Assembly: GCF_001513955.1 (NCBI RefSeq)
Contig: NZ_KQ948153.1
Location: forward strand, 67,279-131,278
Source of the DNA: Streptomyces pseudovenezuelae
GTDB taxonomy: Bacteria > Actinomycetota > Actinomycetes > Streptomycetales > Streptomycetaceae
Direction of reading: 5' to 3'
DNA length: 64,000 nt
Shown: piece after piece, positions 5,640 to 60,128 of the stretch
Position numbering within the stretch: the stretch's first letter is position 1
How the letters are laid out: the number at the start of each line of letters is the position of its first letter
Made by a program: the position numbers and the translations under genes
Notes under the pieces: model-generated
The model's input: the letters and a program-made list of their open reading frames with translations, nothing else
Told to the model about the DNA's origin: nothing
Databases searched by the model: none

Positions 5640-7589
5640 ATGGACGCTCGCTTCACCGCCGAACAGGACGAGATCCGGCTCGCGTTGCGGGACCTGCTGC
5701 GCAGGCGGTGCGGGCCCGGGGAGTCGAGGAGCGCGGCCGACACCCCGGCCGGCTACGACCCCGAGCTGTGGACGGCCCTCGCGCGACAGCTGGGGCTGCC
5801 GGGGCTGGCCCTCCCCGAGCGGTACGGCGGGGTGGGGTGCTCGGTCACCGAGCTCGCGCTGGCCTGCGAGGAGACGGGCCGGGTACTGGCCGCCACCCCG
5901 CTGCTGGCCACGGCGGTCATCGTGGCCCCCCTGGTGCTGGCCCTGGGCACGGACGCCCAGCGCGCGGCCCTGCTGCCCCGCATCGCGTCGGGCGCCCTGA
6001 CGGCGACCCTGGCCGCACCACCGGCCACGGCCCTCGCCCTGACCGGCGACAACAGCGGCGACTGGGCCGGCGGCGGACGAGCGGGCGGAGTCCAGGCCCA
6101 CCCCGTCCACACCACGGCCCAAAGCCACACCCCCGGCCCCCACCCGACACCAACCACGGCAGACGCCCCTCCGGCGGGCGCCGCCCCCGGTGAGCCGGGT
6201 GCTGCTTCGGCGGGGCGGTCGGAGCTATCCCCGGGGGGTGCCGCGCCCGGAGGACCGGGCGCAGCCTCGGGGGGACGGTCGGGCCTTCCCCCGGTGGGTA
6301 CCGCCTCCGGAGGGTCGGGCGCTGCTTCGGTGGGGCGGTCGGAGCTCCCTTCGGGGGGTGCGGCCTCCGGAGGGTCGGGTGTTGCTTCGACGGGGCGGTT
6401 GGCCTCGGCGGGGGCGGAGGAGCCGGCGGGTGCCGTGCCCGGAGGGCCGGGCGCAGCCTTGGCTGGGCGGTCGGAGCTCCCTTCGGTGGGTGCCGCCCCC
6501 GGAGGGGCGGGTGCTGCTTCGGTCGGGCGGTCGGTCTCGGCGGGGGCGGAGGAGCCGGCGGGTGCCGTGCCCGGAGGGCCGGGCGCAGCCTTGGCTGGGC
6601 GGTCGAAGCTCCCCTCGGCGGGCGCCGCCTCCGAGGAGCCAGGTGCTGCTTCGGTGGGACGGTTGGGCTCGGCGGGGGCGGAGGAACCGGTGGGTGCCGC
6701 CTCCGGTGGGTTGGGTGCAGCCTTGGCGGGGCGGTCGGAACTTCCGTCGGCGGGTGCCGCGCGCGGAGGGTCGGGTGCGGCTTCGGTGGGAGGGGCGGAG
6801 GCCCCCTCGGCCGGTGCCGTGCCCCGAGTGCCCGGTGCTGCCCCCGCAGGGCGGTCGGCCGGGTCGGTCCCGGGTGGCGGTGGCTGGCGGCTCTACGGGC
6901 AGGTGGATCAGGTGCTCGACGGGCACAGCGCCGACCTTCTGCTGGTCGCCGCGCACGCCGGGGGGTTCGCCCGGTCCCGGACCCTTCTCTTCCTCGTCCC
7001 CGGGGACGCTCCGGGACTGGTCCGTACCCGGCAGACCGCTCTCGACGCCACTCGGCCCCAGGCCCGTGTCCAACTGCGTGACGTCGAGGCCGAACTGCTC
7101 GGGTCCGAGGACGGGGCCGATGTGCTCGGGGCGCTGGCCCGCACCGGGGACACCGCCGCCGCCGTGCTCGCCTGCGAGGCCGTCGGGGCGGCCGACAGGG
7201 TGCTGGAGACGACCGTCGAGTACGTCGGGCAGCGCGAGCAGTTCGGACGGGCGATCGGGTCGTTCCAGGCGGTCAAGCACCGGCTCGCCGATGTGTACGT
7301 CCAGCTCCAAGCGGCCCGTTCCGCCGCCTACTTCGCCGCCTGGGCCGCCGCGCACGACGAGCAGCGGGTCGGCGGGCTGGCGCTGGCCCAGGCCCTCGAA
7401 GCCCTGCGGACCGCCGCCGCCGAGGGGATCCAGCTGCACGGGGGCATCGGGTTCACCTGGGAGCACGAGGCGCAGCGGTACTTCAAGCGCGCCGCCGCGG
7501 ACGAGCTGCTCTTCGGGCCGGCGCACCGGCTGCGGGCGCACGCCGCCGACGCGGCACAGCTCTTCACGCGGGCGGAGGTGACGGTGTGA
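5640..7589 (+). CDS. Acyl-CoA dehydrogenase with repeat insertion
   Basis: An FAD-dependent acyl-CoA dehydrogenase, which introduces a 2,3-double bond into an acyl-CoA. It has 649 residues where the family usually has 350-400. Residues 1-145 are the N-terminal helical domain (MDARFTAEQDEIRLALRDLL, then ERYGGVGCSVTELALACEETG). Residues from about 414 on resume with GGGGWRLYGQVDQVLDGHS and run to the C-terminal helical domain, including QREQFGRAIGSFQAVKHRLAD and IQLHGGIGFTWEHEAQRYFK. Between them lies a Gly/Ala/Ser/Pro-rich tandem repeat of about 235 residues, at the junction with the beta domain. The frame is open throughout. The ATG at 5640 has a GGAGGGAAGAGG leader. Its last codons overlap the Ddn-like gene (GTGTGA). 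Confidence 0.85.
   Translation: MDARFTAEQDEIRLALRDLLRRRCGPGESRSAADTPAGYDPELWTALARQLGLPGLALPERYGGVGCSVTELALACEETGRVLAATPLLATAVIVAPLVLALGTDAQRAALLPRIASGALTATLAAPPATALALTGDNSGDWAGGGRAGGVQAHPVHTTAQSHTPGPHPTPTTADAPPAGAAPGEPGAASAGRSELSPGGAAPGGPGAASGGRSGLPPVGTASGGSGAASVGRSELPSGGAASGGSGVASTGRLASAGAEEPAGAVPGGPGAALAGRSELPSVGAAPGGAGAASVGRSVSAGAEEPAGAVPGGPGAALAGRSKLPSAGAASEEPGAASVGRLGSAGAEEPVGAASGGLGAALAGRSELPSAGAARGGSGAASVGGAEAPSAGAVPRVPGAAPAGRSAGSVPGGGGWRLYGQVDQVLDGHSADLLLVAAHAGGFARSRTLLFLVPGDAPGLVRTRQTALDATRPQARVQLRDVEAELLGSEDGADVLGALARTGDTAAAVLACEAVGAADRVLETTVEYVGQREQFGRAIGSFQAVKHRLADVYVQLQAARSAAYFAAWAAAHDEQRVGGLALAQALEALRTAAAEGIQLHGGIGFTWEHEAQRYFKRAAADELLFGPAHRLRAHAADAAQLFTRAEVTV
6171..6878 (+). repeat. 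In-frame tandem repeat inside acyl-CoA dehydrogenase
   Basis: About 11 degenerate copies of a roughly 20-residue unit (60 bp), alternating in part with a 25-residue form. The consensus is close to P-S-x-G-A-A-P-G-G-P-G-A-A-S-V-G-R-S-E-L, and longer units add SAGAEE. A 44-residue double unit beginning SAGAEEPAGAVPGG recurs three times (residues about 256-390). All unit lengths are multiples of three, so the reading frame is kept. Confidence 0.9.
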
Positions 7590-17760: not shown

Positions 17761-17949
17761 TCAGGCCTTCTCGTCCGTGGCGTGGTTGTCGAGCGGCTTG
17801 ACCGTGCCGTCCGTCGTACCGGCGGTCAGGGTGACGACCTTCTCGGCGCCCGTGGCGTGGTTGTCGAGCGGCTTGACCGTGTCCTCGGTCCCCGTGGCGT
17901 GGTTGTCGAGCGGCTTGACGGTGCCGTCCTGCTTCTCGGTTTCACTCAT
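17761..17949 (-). CDS. afsS: AfsS-like small regulator with three DNH repeats
   Basis: A 62-residue protein with three copies of TVKPLDNHAT at residues about 10-19, 24-33 and 49-58. AfsS (AfsR2) of S. coelicolor is a 63-residue protein with repeated D-N-H motifs, lies just downstream of afsR on the same strand, and stimulates antibiotic production when AfsR turns it on. Size, repeats and position all match here. The ATG at 17949 is preceded by GGGAGAG. The promoter gap to afsR (206 bp) holds an 11-bp direct repeat fitting AfsR/PhoP sites. How AfsS works is not established; it has no known enzymatic domain. Confidence 0.85.
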   Translation of the reverse strand: MSETEKQDGTVKPLDNHATGTEDTVKPLDNHATGAEKVVTLTAGTTDGTVKPLDNHATDEKA

Positions 17950-18155: not shown

Positions 18156-21100
18156 CTACACGGTGGCCGACGGCGTGAGCAGGAGCCGTACGTCGGCGGC
18201 CTCCGGAGAGCCCAGCTGCTCGAAGATGCCGAGCGCCTCCTGCCAGCACGCATGGGCCCGGCCGGACTGCCCGAGCCCGCCGAGGGCGCGGCCGAGGACC
18301 GTCAGGACGTTGCCGCGCCGCCACTCGCCGCCGATGCCCCGCAGCACGGCGAGGTGGGCCTCGGCGAGCCGGAACAGCGTCATGCCCTCCCACAGCCGCT
18401 GCCGGCTGTCGCGGAAGACCTCCAGCGCCTCCGTCAGCCGGTCCACGGCGGCGTCCAGCAGCCCCTGCCCGGTGAGCGCCAGACCCAGCGCGTACCGGCC
18501 GTTCGCGCCGCGCAGGGTGTGCCCCAGCCGGTCGTAGATGACGATGCCCTGCTGGGCGAGCTCCACGGCGCTGGTGCTCCGTCCCAGGGCCAGGTGGATA
18601 CGGGAGAGGTTGCACAGCGCGCTGGCCTCGCCCGCGAGGTTCCGGTCGAGCCGGAAGCTCTCGATGGCCTCCTTCAGATACGCTTCGCCCTCGGGGTGGC
18701 GCCCCTGGTAGAGCGCGATGATGCCGCGGTCGTTGGCGGCCCAGCAGCGGGGCGCCAGGTCGTCCGCCGCTCGGGCGAGCTGCATGGCCAGCCGGGCCTC
18801 CGCGTCCGCCTGCTCGAAGCGGCCGGCCACGAGATGGACGTTGGTGAGCGTGGTCAGCGCACGCGCGCGGCTGCGCGGGTCGTCCGCCGCGTCGGCCGCG
18901 TCCCGCAGGGCGACGGCGGCGACCTCGTACTGCTTGGAGTTGGCCCCCGACTCGGCCAGGTCCTTCGCCACCCACAGCAGGTCCACCGCGCGCCGCAGCA
19001 GGGCACCCTTCGCGCACTGCTGGACGAAGGCGAGCAGGGCGTTGGCCTCCGCGTACAGCCAGTCCTGGGCGGTGTGGCGGTCGTCGAAGGACAGGCCGGG
19101 GTAGCGGATCTCCTCCAGGTGCTCCACCAGCCGGTCCCCGGGCCGCTCGATGGCGTACACGGCCGCGGCGGTGGCCAGATAGAAGTCCAGCAACCGCGAC
19201 AGCGCCGCCTCGCGCTCACTGGGCGGCCACTCGTCGCGCTCGGCGCACGCACGCGCGTAGAGCCGGACGAGATCGTGGAACCGGTAGCGGCCGGGCGCCG
19301 CCGACTCCAGCAGCGAGGTGTCGACCAGGGCCTCCAGGAGGTCCTCGGTGTCCTCGACGGGCAGGTCCAGTACGGCGGCGGCCGCGGCCAGCGAGATGTC
19401 CGGGCCGTCGGCGAGGCCCAGCAGGCGGAACGCGCGGGCCTGGGCGGGCTCCAGCTGGCCGTAGCCGAGTTCGAAGGTGGCCTTCACGGCGAGGTCGCCG
19501 GCCTGGAGTTCGTCGAGGCGCCGGCGTTCGTCGGCGAGCTTCGCCGCGAGGACGGACACCGTCCAGGTGCGGCGGGCCGCCAGGCGGGAGGCGGCGATAC
19601 GGATGGCGAGCGGGAGGAATCCGCAGGCGGCGACCACGTCGAGGGCGGCCTTGCGCTCGGAGGCGACCCGCTCCTCGCCGACGATCCGGGTGAACAGCTG
19701 CAGTGCCTCGTCGGGGGACATGACGTCCAGGTCGACCAGGTGGGCGCCGGCGAGGTCGACCATCCGGACCCGGGAGGTCACGAGGGCCGCGCAGCCCGCC
19801 GTGCCGGGCAGCAGGGGACGTATCTGGGCCGCGTCGCGCGCGTTGTCGAGCAGGAGGAGGACCCGGCGCCCGTCCAGGACCGAGCGGTACAGGGCGGCCC
19901 GTTCCTCCAGGGAGTCGGGGATCGCGGAGTCGGCGGTGCCGAGGGCGCGGAGGAAGGCGCCGAGGACGGTTTCGGGGTCGGCGGCCCGGGCACCGGCGCC
20001 CTGGAGGTCGACGTAGAGCTGCCCGTCGGGGAAGGCGGAGCGCGCCTGGTGGGCCACGTGCACGGCCAGCGTGGTCTTGCCGACGCCGCCGATGCCGGCG
20101 AGCGCGGAGACCGCCATCACGCGGCCCTCGGAGCCGGAGGCGAGGACCTCGCTCAGTTCGGTGACGAAGGACGCGCGGCCGGTGAAGTCGGGCACGGTCG
20201 CCGGGAGTTGCGCGGGGCGGACAGGCGCGGCGACCGGTTCGGGCTGCGGGGAGGAGGGCTCCGCGAGACCGGGGTCGGCCTGGAGGATGCGCTGCTGGAG
20301 CTCGCGCAGGCCGGGGCGGGGGTCGACGCCGAGTTCGTCGGCGAGCAGCCTGCGGGTGTCGGCGTAGACCGCGAGGGCCTCGGCCTGCCGGCCGCTGCGG
20401 TACAGGGCCAGCATGAGCAGTTCCCTGAGCCGCTCGCGCAGGGGGTGCTCGGCGGTGAGCGCGGTGAGTTCGGAGACCGCCTCCGCGTGGCAGCCCTGCT
20501 CCAGGTCCATGTCCAGGCGGGATTCGAGGAGTTGCAGCCGCCACTCCTCCAGCCGCACGCGCTGTGCCTCGGCGTACGGCCCCGGCACGCCCGCGAGCAC
20601 CTCGCCGTCCCACAGGCCCAGCGCCCGGGCCAGCTGGTCCCGCGCCTGGCACAGGTCCCCGGCGCTTCTGGCCTTCTCCGCCCCGGTGGCGAGTTCCTGG
20701 GCGGCGGCGAGGTCCAGCGCGTCCTCGCCGAGTCCGCGGATCGCGTAGCCGCCGGACTCGCTGACCAGGATCCCGGGGTCGAGGATCTTGCGGAGCCGGG
20801 AGGCGTACGTGCGCACCGCGGCCAGGGCCTGCTCCGGGGGCTCCTCGCCCCACAGGGCGGAGATCAGCTCGGCGGCGGTCGCGGTGCGGCCCTCACGCAG
20901 CAGCAGGGCGGCGAGCAGGGCGCGTTGCTGGGGGGACCCGGTGGCCAGCAGTTCCTCCCCACGCCAGGCACGCACCGGCCCGAGCACACTGAACCGCAAC
21001 GACGGCACGACCGCTGCCACGGGGCTGGTGCGCGGCCCGAATCCGGTGCCGGGGCCCGTGTGCGGCCCGGCTTCCGACGCAGAGCCGGTGTGCTGTCCGG

Positions 21101-21923
21101 CTCGGGCCGCGGGGTCGGTGTCCTGACTGACATCTGCCGCGGTGGCCGTGTCCTTGCCGGGACCCGTGCGCGGCCCGAATCCCGTGCGGGGGCTGGTGTG
21201 TTGCCCGGCTCGGGCCGCGGGGCCCGTGTCCTTCCCGGCTTCCGTGGTGGAGCGCCTGTGGTGGCGGGGCGCCGCTGCGGGGTCGATGTTCTGGCCGGCC
21301 TCCGCCGCGGGGTCCGTGCCCTTGCCGGTTCCCGCCGCGGGGCTGGTGCGCGGCCCGAATCCGGTGCCGGGGCCCTTGTCCTGCCCGGCATCCGCCGCGG
21401 AGCCGGTGTGTCGCTCGGCTCGGGCCGCGGGGGCCGTGTTCATCCCGGCTTCCGTGGCGGAGGGCATGTCTCGGCCGGCTCCGGCCGCAGCGTCGCCGTC
21501 CGACCGGACCGCCGCCTCAGGGTCCGTCTCCTTGCCATTCACCGCCGTCGGACCCGTGTGGTGCCCGGCTCCGGCCGCGGCGTCGGCGTCCTGCCGGATT
21601 GCCGCCGCAGGGTTCGTGTCCTTGCCATTCACCGCCACGTGACCCGTGTGGTGCCCGGCTCCGGCCGCGGCGTCGATGTCCGACCGGACCGCCGCCTCAG
21701 GGCTCGTGTCCTCGCCAGTCACCGCCGCCGGACCCATGTGGTGCCCGGCCCCGGCCCCGGCGTCGACGTCCGACCGGATCGCCGCCGCAGGGCCCGTGTC
21801 CTCGCCGACCGCCCTCGCGGGGCCGATCCGCTGCCCGGAAGCCGCCGTTGAGCCCGTGTCCTGCCCGGCCCCCACCGGGGAGCCGGGACGCCTCTGCTCC
21901 GGCACCCGTGGTACACCGTCCAT
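18156..21923 (-). CDS. afsR: SARP-NB-ARC-TPR transcription factor AfsR, extended
   Basis: A 1255-residue global regulator. After MDGVPRVPEQRR there is a decapeptide-repeat region (about 21-303). The SARP winged-helix DNA-binding domain follows (about 307-400, from LRFSVLGPVRAW), then the BTAD domain (about 405-550), an NB-ARC ATPase with Walker A AGIGGVGKTTLA (609-620) and Walker B RRVLLLLDNA, and C-terminal TPRs (about 950-1240). AfsR is phosphorylated by AfsK and other kinases, binds DNA, hydrolyses ATP and activates afsS. S. coelicolor AfsR has 993 residues; without the repeat this protein would be close to that. The start at 21923 has a GGGGGAC leader. Internal starts in the repeat cannot be excluded. 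Confidence 0.88.
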   Translation of the reverse strand: MDGVPRVPEQRRPGSPVGAGQDTGSTAASGQRIGPARAVGEDTGPAAAIRSDVDAGAGAGHHMGPAAVTGEDTSPEAAVRSDIDAAAGAGHHTGHVAVNGKDTNPAAAIRQDADAAAGAGHHTGPTAVNGKETDPEAAVRSDGDAAAGAGRDMPSATEAGMNTAPAARAERHTGSAADAGQDKGPGTGFGPRTSPAAGTGKGTDPAAEAGQNIDPAAAPRHHRRSTTEAGKDTGPAARAGQHTSPRTGFGPRTGPGKDTATAADVSQDTDPAARAGQHTGSASEAGPHTGPGTGFGPRTSPVAAVVPSLRFSVLGPVRAWRGEELLATGSPQQRALLAALLLREGRTATAAELISALWGEEPPEQALAAVRTYASRLRKILDPGILVSESGGYAIRGLGEDALDLAAAQELATGAEKARSAGDLCQARDQLARALGLWDGEVLAGVPGPYAEAQRVRLEEWRLQLLESRLDMDLEQGCHAEAVSELTALTAEHPLRERLRELLMLALYRSGRQAEALAVYADTRRLLADELGVDPRPGLRELQQRILQADPGLAEPSSPQPEPVAAPVRPAQLPATVPDFTGRASFVTELSEVLASGSEGRVMAVSALAGIGGVGKTTLAVHVAHQARSAFPDGQLYVDLQGAGARAADPETVLGAFLRALGTADSAIPDSLEERAALYRSVLDGRRVLLLLDNARDAAQIRPLLPGTAGCAALVTSRVRMVDLAGAHLVDLDVMSPDEALQLFTRIVGEERVASERKAALDVVAACGFLPLAIRIAASRLAARRTWTVSVLAAKLADERRRLDELQAGDLAVKATFELGYGQLEPAQARAFRLLGLADGPDISLAAAAAVLDLPVEDTEDLLEALVDTSLLESAAPGRYRFHDLVRLYARACAERDEWPPSEREAALSRLLDFYLATAAAVYAIERPGDRLVEHLEEIRYPGLSFDDRHTAQDWLYAEANALLAFVQQCAKGALLRRAVDLLWVAKDLAESGANSKQYEVAAVALRDAADAADDPRSRARALTTLTNVHLVAGRFEQADAEARLAMQLARAADDLAPRCWAANDRGIIALYQGRHPEGEAYLKEAIESFRLDRNLAGEASALCNLSRIHLALGRSTSAVELAQQGIVIYDRLGHTLRGANGRYALGLALTGQGLLDAAVDRLTEALEVFRDSRQRLWEGMTLFRLAEAHLAVLRGIGGEWRRGNVLTVLGRALGGLGQSGRAHACWQEALGIFEQLGSPEAADVRLLLTPSATV
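21015..21863 (-). repeat. 30-bp tandem repeat coding decapeptides in AfsR
   Basis: About 28 copies of a 10-residue unit (30 bp) with consensus near x-D-T-G-P-A-A-x-A-G. The first half is organised as a 30-residue (90-bp) triplet, HHTGP-x-AVNG / KDTxPxAAxR / SDxDAAAGAG, repeated four times. Every unit is in frame. This precedes the DNA-binding domain. Confidence 0.9.
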
Positions 21924-21933
21924 CGCCGTCCCC

Positions 21934-21945
21934 CTAGGGCCTGTC
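21934..21945. repeat. Isolated CTAGGGCCTGTC tip upstream of afsR
   Basis: The 12 bases are identical to the outer tip of the 90-bp inverted-repeat element at 4303-4392. No matching opposite tip is seen within a few hundred bases. It may be a decayed end or chance. Confidence 0.3.
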
Positions 21946-42087: not shown

Positions 42088-42262
42088 AGGGCGGTGCGCC
42101 CCCGCCACGACCGCGCTGCTCCCTGGCGCTCGCCGAGCCTGCGTACGGTGGACGCTGCACCTGCCCCGCGCGCGGCCGACCGGCCGTGCCGACCCGGGCA
42201 GACCGAGCCGCCCCTGGCCGACCGGTCCCGCCCCCGCCGGGCCCGACACCGCGCTCGCCCCC

Positions 42263-42316
42263 GGCCCACCCGGCCCACCCGGCCCACCCGGCCCACCCGG
42301 CCCACCCGGCCCACCC
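42263..42316. repeat. Perfect 9-bp tandem repeat, six copies
   Basis: GGCCCACCC repeated six times without a change, followed by about 110 bp of Pro-codon-like CCC-rich DNA, in the 672-bp gap between LysR and LLM genes. Apart from the integrase remnant I see no gene in this gap. Confidence 0.9.
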
Positions 42317-42503
42317 GGGCCCCCAGCCCCAGCCCCGGTCCACCCGGTCCACCTGACCCACCCGGCCCACCCGAGCCCCCAGCTCCAGCCCCCCGCCCCC
42401 CTGCTCACCCCACCCACCCCCACACCCCAACACCCCAACAACCCCCAACGATGCCGACCAGTCGGTATGGACATCCCCGCCCCCGCCCGGTACAGATGCA
42501 GTC

Positions 42504-57338: not shown

Positions 57339-60128
57339 TCAGCCGACGCGGGTCAGCTTGTCGGTCAGACCCGGCTCGGTCAGGTCCTTCTGCAGGGTGA
57401 CCGGCACCTTGACCGCGCCGCCCTTGCCGTCACCGACGGTGAGGCTTCCGACCTTGGTGCCGGCCTTCGCGGTGTGCGGCACCTCGTCGGCGGTGAAGGA
57501 CAGCTTCACCTTGAAGCCGGCCCAGCCGACGGCGGTGACGTCCTTGGTCAGCACGACGGGGGTGTGGCCGCCGAGGCCGTCGTCCACGTATCCGACGACG
57601 TCGCCCTTCTTCAGGATCTTCGCCGACTTCAGGGCGTCCTCCGCGGCGAGCAGCGCGACCTTGCTGACGTCGTTGACGGTCTTGATGATCGGCGCCTTGT
57701 GCTGGCCGAGGATCGCGCCGACCACGGTGACGGTCTCCCCGCCGACCTCCTTGCGGGACGCGAAGAGGAGGTTGCCGCCGGCGGCGCTGGTGGTCCCGGT
57801 CTTGATGCCGATGCCGGTGTAGGGGACCAGATAGTTGTAGTTGTACCACTTCTGTCCGGACGGATCGACCCACTGTCCCATGGACGTGATCTCCATCAGC
57901 GCCGGGATCTTCACCAGCTCGTTGCCGAGCTTCACCTGGTCCTCGGCGGAGGAGACGGTGGTCTCCTTCAGGCCCGAGGCGTCGGTGTACTTCGTGTTCT
58001 TCATGCCGAGTTCCTGGGCGGTGTCGTTCATCTTCTTGATGAACGCGGCCTCGGAACCGGCGTCCCAGCGGGCGAGCAGCCGGGCGATGTTGTTGGCGGA
58101 CGGGATCATGATCGCCGCGATCGCCTGCCTCTGGGTGAGGACGTCGCCCTGCTTGACGGTGTTGAGGGTGGACTCGCCCTGCTTGTTGTAGCCGCCCTCC
58201 TTCTCGGCGAGCGCGTCGACGGTGATCTTCGGGCCCTCCGCGCCGGACTTGAGGGGGTGGTCCTTCAGGACGATGTAGGCGGTCATGGCCTTGGCCACGG
58301 AGCCGATCGCGACGGGGGTCTGCTTGCCGAAGTTCCCCATCGTGCCGACGCCGTTGACGTCCATCCAGCCCTGGCCCTGGGTGGGCCAGGGGAGGGACGC
58401 CTCGTTGCCGTCGAAGGTGTAGGAGTCCTCGGCGGTGAGGCTGAGGGTGGGGTCCGGCAGCGGACGCAGAGCCTGCGCGATCGCAAACGCGACGACCAGG
58501 AGGATGACGAGCGGGGTCCAGATCTTGACCCGGCGGCCGAGGGTGCGCAGGGGGCTGGGCGGGGGCGGCGGAGTGTTGGTGAGCTCCGCGAGCAGGTCGA
58601 GGGGCGGCTTCGGCGGCAGGGGCTGCTGCGTGGTGCGCTCCGGGCCGACCTGGGGGACGGCGGTGGTCACGTCCGGCTTCGGCCGGGGCTCGTCGAGGGC
58701 CTTCAGCGCGACGAACCGGCTCGTCCGCTCGGCGTCGGCCTCCGGCTTGGGCTTGGGCTTGGGCTCCGGCTCCGGCTCCGCTTCCGGCTCGGCCTCCGGT
58801 GTCTTGCCGAGCTTCAGCATGGTGGTGGGCTGGTCCACGGCGGGCCGGGGAGCCTTGAAGACGGCGGTGGGCTGGTCGACGGGGGGCGTGTCCTCCACGT
58901 CCGCGTCGTCCGTCCGCGAGGCGGCTCCCCGCGCCCCCGAGGGGGCCGGCTCGTCGTCTACGGCAGTCCCGGCGTCGTCGTCCTCTTCGGTGTCGCCGGC
59001 CGCCTCGGGCTCGCCGGCCCCGGCGTCCTTGCCGGAACCGTCCCCCTTGGCCACCCACGCCGCCACCGCGTCCCGCAGCCGGGCGTCCCCCACCGCGGCG
59101 GGTTCCTCCCGCTCACCGGAGCCACGAGCCCCGTCTTCGGTCGCGGGGCGCGTGTCCTCCGGGGTCTTCGCCGTGCCGGAGTCGTCCGGGCCGTCGGCGG
59201 TGTCCGTGTCGTCCGTGGTCTTGGCGTCGCCGGAGTCCTCGGGCCCCTCGGGGGTGTCGGTGTCGTCCGGGGCGTCGGCTGTGCCCGTGTCGTCCGAGTC
59301 CTCGGCCGGGCGCGCGTCCTCCGGGGCGTCCGCCGTGCCGGTGTCGTGCAAGCCGTCGGCCGTCCGGGAATCGTCCGGAGCCTTCGCCGCGCGCGGGTCC
59401 TCCGGGGCGTCCGCCGTGCCGGTGTTACCCGGGCCGTCGGCGGTGTCGGTGGCGTGCGGGGTCTCGGCCTTGCCGGAGTCCTCGGGCCCCTTGGGGGTGT
59501 CGGTGTCGTCCGGGGCGTCAGTCGTGCCCCTCGTGCCCGTGTCGTCCGAGCGCTCGGACGCGCCGGTGTCCTCCGGCGTCTCGGACGTACCGGATTCGTC
59601 CGCGCCCTCGGCGGCGCCGGAGTCCTCGGACTCCTGAGCCGTACCGGAGCCCTTCGACGCCTTCGCCGGAGCCGCGTCCTCCGGGGCGTCCGTCGGGTCC
59701 GCGTCCTCAGGGGCGTCCTCCAGGGCCGCGTCCCCCGGGCCGTCCTCCGGGACCGCATCCTCCGGGCCGGCCGGCGTGGACGTGTCGTCCGGCGTGGGCG
59801 TGTCGGCGTCCGTCGCCTCGGTGCTCCGGGCGGGCTCTGGGCGCCGCTCCGCGGCCGGAGGGGCGTCCTCGGGCTCCCCGGTGCCGGAACCGTCCGCTCC
59901 AGCCTCAGCGGGGCTCTCGCCGGCGTCCTCGGGGGTCTTCGGGAGGTCACGCACCGAGAAGACCTTCGTGGCCGTGTCGAGACCTCCGAGGGAGATGGAC
60001 TCCCGTGCCACCGCGAGCCGGGGATCGGGGGCGGAACTCCTCGCCCCGGGAACCGGACTCGCGCTCCCCGACGTCGGTTCTGCCGACGACTCGCGCTGCT
60101 TCGACCTGTCGGGGGACTCGCCCGCCAC
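57339..60128 (-). CDS. D-Ala-D-Ala carboxypeptidase with repeat-rich arm
   Basis: A 929-residue DD-carboxypeptidase (PBP5/S11 type) that trims the terminal D-Ala of peptidoglycan stem peptides outside the cell. Residues 1-535 are cytoplasmic and disordered, with a nonapeptide repeat at about 161-331 and a Pro/Glu/Lys stretch; a single transmembrane helix spans about 536-552; the enzyme domain has S-x-x-K at 610-613 (GSVAK), S-x-N at 677-679 (PSANN) and KTG in GIKTGTTSAAG. Cytoplasmic DQPTAVFK/DQPTTMLK motifs are possible phosphorylation sites. GTG at 60128 has GGAGGAGG upstream. The 250-bp gap to the divergent GPP34 gene holds both promoters. Confidence 0.9.
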   Translation of the reverse strand: MAGESPDRSKQRESSAEPTSGSASPVPGARSSAPDPRLAVARESISLGGLDTATKVFSVRDLPKTPEDAGESPAEAGADGSGTGEPEDAPPAAERRPEPARSTEATDADTPTPDDTSTPAGPEDAVPEDGPGDAALEDAPEDADPTDAPEDAAPAKASKGSGTAQESEDSGAAEGADESGTSETPEDTGASERSDDTGTRGTTDAPDDTDTPKGPEDSGKAETPHATDTADGPGNTGTADAPEDPRAAKAPDDSRTADGLHDTGTADAPEDARPAEDSDDTGTADAPDDTDTPEGPEDSGDAKTTDDTDTADGPDDSGTAKTPEDTRPATEDGARGSGEREEPAAVGDARLRDAVAAWVAKGDGSGKDAGAGEPEAAGDTEEDDDAGTAVDDEPAPSGARGAASRTDDADVEDTPPVDQPTAVFKAPRPAVDQPTTMLKLGKTPEAEPEAEPEPEPKPKPKPEADAERTSRFVALKALDEPRPKPDVTTAVPQVGPERTTQQPLPPKPPLDLLAELTNTPPPPPSPLRTLGRRVKIWTPLVILLVVAFAIAQALRPLPDPTLSLTAEDSYTFDGNEASLPWPTQGQGWMDVNGVGTMGNFGKQTPVAIGSVAKAMTAYIVLKDHPLKSGAEGPKITVDALAEKEGGYNKQGESTLNTVKQGDVLTQRQAIAAIMIPSANNIARLLARWDAGSEAAFIKKMNDTAQELGMKNTKYTDASGLKETTVSSAEDQVKLGNELVKIPALMEITSMGQWVDPSGQKWYNYNYLVPYTGIGIKTGTTSAAGGNLLFASRKEVGGETVTVVGAILGQHKAPIIKTVNDVSKVALLAAEDALKSAKILKKGDVVGYVDDGLGGHTPVVLTKDVTAVGWAGFKVKLSFTADEVPHTAKAGTKVGSLTVGDGKGGAVKVPVTLQKDLTEPGLTDKLTRVG
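59136..59648 (-). repeat. 27-bp repeat coding nonapeptides in DD-carboxypeptidase
   Basis: About 19 copies of a 9-residue acidic unit, consensus near [ED]-D-[TS]-G-T-A-[DE]-x-P (for example DDTGTADAP, EDSGTAQES), all in frame, coding the intracellular arm. Confidence 0.9.

Follow-up and report, generated by a model that had tools for sequence, protein, structure and literature searches.

The closest described counterpart of the locus considered here is AfsR of Streptomyces coelicolor (PDB 8k60, 8jke and 8hvr; PMC10936776), in which an OmpR-type DNA-binding domain (ODB), BTAD, NOD, arm and TPR follow one another and the SARP region begins right after an N-terminal tail of 24 residues. The afsR gene in a 64,000-nucleotide stretch of Streptomyces pseudovenezuelae DNA (hereafter the window) encodes the same order of domains, but the tail of its product reaches 308 residues and carries a long in-frame array of decapeptides. 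A nearer relative is AfsR of S. canus DSM 40017 (locus L038), where an array occupies the same place in a 265-residue tail, ahead of a core 95.8% identical to that of the window and beside a DNHAT-type AfsS; the number, order and sequence of its units differ from those of the window, however, and it has no 16-residue TPR deletion. Imperfect units whose lengths are multiples of three bases, an organization into higher-order units and copy numbers that vary between close relatives also characterize bacterial coding minisatellites (variable-number tandem repeats, VNTRs) in disordered regions, from which the window array differs in lying within a global transcription activator and in a variation that is known here between species. 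For the C-terminal sensor of AfsR and its small partner AfsS, the RRNPP receptors (Rap, NprR and PlcR) may serve as an analogy only, as they combine an intracellular TPR receptor, an adjoining gene for a small variable partner peptide and conserved asparagines along successive TPRs. AfsR and AfsS depart from that family in having a SARP output domain with a STAND ATPase, in the lack of a secretion signal in the AfsS sequence and in a pairing known here from co-variation.

The window gene extends over positions 18156..21923 on the reverse strand (the strand of every feature of the locus given below), starts with ATG and encodes 1255 residues. Domain matches comprise Trans_reg_C (2.6e-8), BTAD (5.5e-46), NB-ARC (3.9e-15) and TPR_12 (2.4e-11). 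The SARP domain (Trans_reg_C and BTAD) lies at 20259..20999 (residues 309–555), the NB-ARC or NOD domain at 19566..20159 (residues 589–786) and the hypervariable C-terminal arm and TPR sensor at 18159..19109 (residues 939–1255), over which orthologue identity is about 0.6 as opposed to about 0.9 before it. Directly downstream, afsS (17761..17949) encodes 62 residues with three DNHAT motifs. A phmmer comparison with S. coelicolor AfsR returns E=0 with similarity over the full length and aligns residue 24 of 8k60 with residue 308 of the window protein, leaving about 284 residues extra in the window. The OmpR-type DNA-binding domain with BTAD, the NB-ARC/NOD, the C-terminal TPR and the adjoining afsS identify the gene, as far as sequence matches allow, as that of the SARP-NOD-TPR activator AfsR. 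The original prediction had named it as such, and had also correctly given 993 residues for the S. coelicolor protein, the length in 8k60.

The extra residues form a tandem array at 21021..21878 (residues 16–301), located in frame between the conserved N-terminal peptide MDGVPRVPEQRRPGS and the SARP domain. It consists of 28 full decapeptide units and one partial unit of 6 residues: 24 units stand in a single register from residue 16 (nucleotide 21878) to residue 255, the partial unit (21141..21158, residues 256–261) shifts the register, and four further units reach residue 301 (nucleotide 21021). Superimposed on this period is a 90-bp (30-residue) higher-order unit, present in four copies at 21459..21818 (residues 36–155; period 90, 86% matches). 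Self-matching of the AfsR protein peaks at lags of 10, 20, 30 and 60 residues (0.28, 0.25, 0.39 and 0.38), and the best lag compares with a mean maximum of 0.16 in composition-preserving shuffles, none of which reached the observed value in 500. The long repetitive N-terminal arm is thus confirmed, with exactly the 28 in-frame copies ahead of the DNA-binding domain and the 30-residue superstructure that had been claimed; the limits first proposed, 21015–21863, lie within about 15 bases of those measured.

The array is preceded by the conserved start of the protein. The 15-residue peptide MDGVPRVPEQRRPGS (21879..21923) is conserved among 62 orthologues, in which V7, P8 and Q10 are invariant, as they also are in alignment A1, and P5, E9, R11 and R12 are invariant or nearly so. 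Over the first 14 codons of the 62 standard-start orthologues the amino acids are kept while synonymous codons vary at most sites, and a Shine–Dalgarno-like AGGGGGA (21929..21935) stands upstream of the conserved ATG, as it does in the 12 orthologue upstream sequences printed. Because the ATG, AGGGGGA and N-terminal peptide are conserved with synonymous codon variation, translation can be taken from the sequence to start upstream of the array, and the short N-terminus that had merely looked conserved proves to be so. The converse proposal, that translation begins after the array near 21010 and leaves the repeat as an untranslated leader, was one that the original prediction had itself raised. 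It could draw on the fact that most orthologues manage with tails of 20–30 residues, but orthologues have the ATG, the AGGGGGA and the peptide MDGVPRVPEQRRPG ahead of the tail, with conservation at the amino-acid level and synonymous variation of codons, and the coding frame alone is free of stops across the array, as against one to four stops in each of the other five frames; a late start is accordingly very improbable and was discarded. The peptide MDGVPRVPEQRRPG is kept genus-wide, though it lies from about 10 to almost 300 residues away from the SARP domain.

A close AfsR was found in 370 of 393 genomes of the genus. Comparison of 97 non-redundant orthologues, drawn from loci of genus genomes and of a named collection, each set with one genome per species, shows that the tail varies independently of a protein that is otherwise of nearly fixed size: the core measures 963 ± 6 residues (extremes 947 and 1012), and the tail has a median of 27 residues and a range of 20–310, the window's 310 being the longest. 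On a tree of the core, the window groups with genome G235 (207-residue tail) within a clade of 11 rows (Shimodaira–Hasegawa-like approximate likelihood ratio test 96), whose cores are mostly 93–98% identical and whose tails measure 310, 265, 233, 207, 133, 112, 72, 51, 50, 45 and 33 residues. Seven of these 11 rows carry the decapeptide, among them S. canus DSM 40017, Streptomyces sp. NRRL B-24085 and Streptomyces sp. LUP47B (about 3 units), so that arrays in S. canus and its relatives span 3 to 28 units. In-frame tandem units above chance whose number differs between close relatives, with tails of 33–310 residues in one clade, are in keeping with a VNTR. The arrays of S. canus DSM 40017 (265 residues) and G141 (233 residues), whose cores are 98.1% identical, have common ends and different interiors, as expected for a minisatellite. 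Outside AfsR the decapeptide was not found in any protein of this genome, and where it occurs in the wider sets (5 of 296 genus genomes and 4 of 395 relatives) it lies in AfsR without exception; given its absence from other proteins in all three sets, the idea of a repeat that is mobile or common to several proteins was discarded. These distributions support a gain of about 284 residues specific to one lineage, as read from the sequences.

That the repeat length reflects faulty assembly, a possibility also voiced with the original prediction, is scarcely credible: the window assembly is indeed in 32 contigs, but false expansion is unlikely with imperfect units, the similarity of which peaks at about 86% in the 90-bp block, and the sister genomes G140 and G141, in two to three contigs, have the same kind of array. 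Nor is a variable tail unique to this array. In a second clade, tails of 83–141 residues have been built at the same place from other, unrelated repeats (GGSAPQA in S. cellulosae, EAEAVA-like units and others), beside relatives with 29–35 residues, and in orthologues the N-terminal peptide has itself been duplicated recurrently on a smaller scale (MDGVPDGVPRVPEQ and VPRVPEVPRVPEQ). No prior account of tandemly repeated units in AfsR, or of such repeats in coding regions of Streptomyces, was found among titles, abstracts and passages, with subscription journals and preprints outside that coverage.

The arm shows no constraint at the level of single residues. Between window units 30 bp apart, mismatches at the first, second and third codon positions amount to 0.47, 0.40 and 0.46, and other long arrays are similarly flat; the AfsR core compared between the window and its sister species gives 0.029, 0.008 and 0.11, a strong third-position bias. 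The ratio of non-synonymous to synonymous differences (pN/pS) between the four 90-bp copies is 1.43. The flat mismatches and this ratio indicate that purifying selection does not maintain the arm at the amino-acid level. AlphaFold2 gives residues 1–308 no secondary structure, with a predicted local distance difference test (pLDDT) score of about 43 for the arm, compared with about 80 for the BTAD part of the SARP domain, a weak sign that is consistent with disorder of the arm in the model.

Taken with the turnover in length, these properties make it probable that the arm is a coding minisatellite in a disordered, length-tolerant tail, acting as a passive spacer. In the S. canus/S. griseorubiginosus lineage, a stretch of about 10 codons of the disordered tail would have been duplicated, and the resulting array would then have grown, shrunk and been duplicated anew by 30 or 90 bp at a time without any loss of the reading frame, presumably through slippage or unequal recombination. 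The product would be a flexible spacer rich in Ala, Gly, Thr and Pro that links the conserved 15-residue N-terminal peptide to a SARP activator that is intact in all other respects. The spacer would be tolerated since the tail is not part of the folded SARP domain and is free to vary in length. Its most likely effect would be passive, a longer tether and a bulkier protein with no new regulatory activity, and the length itself may well be neutral. Several observations weigh against so plain an account. All arrays of the clade have a recognizable motif, xAGQ[HD]T[GSN]P, and the arms stay rich in Ala, Gly, Thr and Pro and poor in hydrophobic residues, so that bulk composition could be selected even if exact residues are not; diversifying selection could also account for a pN/pS above one between units; conservation of the N-terminal peptide suggests that something is retained at the distal end of the arm; and low AlphaFold confidence is also expected simply from the few aligned homologues of the arm.

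The functional part of the original prediction, namely that the arm could alter DNA binding, phosphorylation or phase behaviour, amounts to supposing an adaptive arm: a multivalent disordered region tuning AfsR through promoter search, oligomerization or phosphorylation of multiple Ser/Thr sites by AfsK, the number of units serving as a rheostat. We consider this unlikely, and none of the present measurements calls for it. Large arms do recur in two separate clades, the window arm offers 45 Ser/Thr, 33 Asp/Glu and 24 Lys/Arg among 289 residues, and PMC10936776 describes S22, a tail phosphosite just ahead of the SARP domain of S. coelicolor AfsR, as phosphorylated by AfsK. However, codon-position bias is absent among units, near relatives within the clade get by with tails of 33–51 residues, and charge and histidine content vary between arms. 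S22, moreover, is not among the four conserved sites given in that paper, which reports that phosphorylation barely affects activation. A conserved tail phosphosite was rejected as a candidate, S22 having no fixed counterpart in the arms of this clade. Roles of the arm in phosphorylation, DNA binding or condensates are therefore unsupported, and the original prediction holds in its other parts: the AfsR identity, the lineage-specific gain and a size that varies greatly among close relatives. The arm illustrates that the tail before the DNA-binding domain of a global antibiotic activator can grow ten-fold without visible loss elsewhere in the protein. As a permissive insertion site, it counsels caution against assigning a function to every repeat.

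The opposite end of AfsR varies in another manner. Orthologue identity drops sharply at about residue 935, and among 96 orthologues SARP+NOD has a mean identity of 0.90 (minimum 0.82), compared with 0.60 (minimum 0.37) for the C-terminal sensor. At 68% identity the sensors fall into 16 clusters, which require 39 changes on the SARP+NOD tree, and 205 pairs are more than 93% identical in SARP+NOD and less than 75% identical in the C-terminal part. The loci of G140 (L164) and G141 (L165) are about 97% identical outside the N-terminal array except for one island of 68–76% identity, 1.6 kb long (about 9150–10750 of L165), over the sensor and afsS. The sensor of G140 has its closest matches in distant species (0.84) and not among its sisters. 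The island is a cassette replacement of sensor and afsS together, and the AfsR sensor is exchanged between lineages along with the adjacent afsS.

The sensor of the S. canus protein is predicted to form a TPR superhelix (pLDDT 93.5), and the best structural matches in a fold search are general peptide-binding TPR superhelices (LGN and KLC), with no RRNPP receptor among the best 50. Asparagine ladders in TPR receptors hold peptide backbones. In the S. canus sensor fragment, asparagines at equivalent TPR positions (N150, N191, N227 and N307) are found in 90, 96, 93 and 81 of 96 sequences, and site 151, beside them, is highly variable. Whether an inducer binds the sensor domain ‘remains elusive' according to PMC10936776. 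In the window, the sensor has lost 16 residues of a C-terminal TPR that its relatives have, by an in-frame deletion with its junction at 18353/18354 (residues 1190/1191), where the closest relatives have LAGHRPAQTAALTEQA.

The repeats of S. coelicolor AfsS are already known, PMC2267785 describing three of 12 residues. Across the orthologues, the small gene about 200 nucleotides downstream of afsR encodes two to five copies of a short motif whose type follows the sensor cluster: DNHAT in g5 (the window), DNHAS in g4, DAHA[TS] in g2, NTHVT in g3, DTH[VI]T in g6, DNVHIT in g7, D[LMI]HAT in g8, N[VIST]HAT-like in g9, DSHMPAPP in g10, DQHAPAPP in g11, DTHIS in g12 and [DN]N[AN]MP in g13, others also existing. 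Units of differing types, 12–15 residues long, are exemplified by KPLDNHATGTED and TTLGDIHATDEP. In partial Mantel tests over 79 loci, AfsS correlates with the sensor given SARP+NOD (r=0.69; 0 of 999 permutations), and with SARP+NOD given the sensor it does not (r=0.007); the region 0.7–2.7 kb downstream does not track AfsS either (0.15, compared with 0.53 for the sensor).

Since the sensor allele predicts the AfsS motif, these correlations suggest AfsS-type peptides as candidate ligands of the AfsR sensor. We tentatively propose, at a little less than an even chance, that AfsR and AfsS form a polymorphic receptor–peptide pair in which exchangeable sensor alleles are matched to the adjacent AfsS motif (DNHAT, DLHAT, NTHVT, DSHMP, DNNMP and others). 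Either AfsS or peptides released from it by cleavage would then be the missing inducer or inhibitor, a neighbouring secreted peptide bearing the motif of another type could act on AfsR of other strains, and the N-terminal array would be incidental. Against this it must be said that sensor and afsS adjoin, so that linkage alone would move both, and that correlation is no proof of binding. Linkage does not, for its part, explain why the diversification of sensor and AfsS is coordinated and is not shared by the flank on either side. No prior account of AfsS as an AfsR ligand, or of peptide signalling through AfsR, was found among titles, abstracts and passages, subscription journals and preprints again being outside the coverage. 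Both the inducer of the AfsR sensor and the mode of action of AfsS are unsettled, and the co-variation offers one testable answer to the two; if it is true, the pair would offer a way to turn on the antibiotic production of Streptomyces with a peptide.

A connection between the two ends of the protein is also conceivable, the arm mimicking the AfsS motif (for example QHAS or QHTG for DNHAT) as a tethered copy that occupies the sensor. The arms of this clade do hold QH[AT][SGN], and the AfsS that goes with their type of sensor has the DNHAT motif, but local alignments of arm and AfsS units are no better than those of shuffled arms (18 for the window, against a shuffled mean of 23; 44 of 300 shuffles in the best case), so that mimicry was ruled out as exceedingly doubtful.

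Returning to the proposed receptor–peptide pair, its resemblance to RRNPP systems extends to a TPR receptor with a small peptide gene adjacent to it. It does not extend to export: the AfsS sequence has no secretion signal, and a separate signal-peptide-like gene is found at seven loci only. There, an extra small gene 550–740 nucleotides past afsR combines a signal-peptide-like start, detected by pattern rather than by a trained signal-peptide predictor, with an AfsS-type motif that always differs from that of the locus's own AfsS. These genes lie, past the afsR stop, at +596 (L055), +577 (L066), +574 (L164), +587 (L183), +554 (L184), +736 (L185) and +562 (L186) nucleotides. Own and secreted motifs are, respectively, DAHAT and DNVHAT in S. 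justiciae, DTHIS and DIHAT in Streptomyces sp. V4I2, DIHAT and DNHAT in G140, DNHAS and DAHAT in G103, DLHAT and DTHIS in G124, DNGMP and DNPMP in G128, and DNVHAT and DSHIT in G040. Several of the secreted motifs coincide with those of AfsS proteins paired with other sensor types. Secreted AfsS-like peptides are a lead as possible components of the AfsR system.

Elsewhere in the window, further imperfect tandem-repeat arrays with periods of 9–192 bp are present at 6171–6790, 42180–42421 and 59152–59805.

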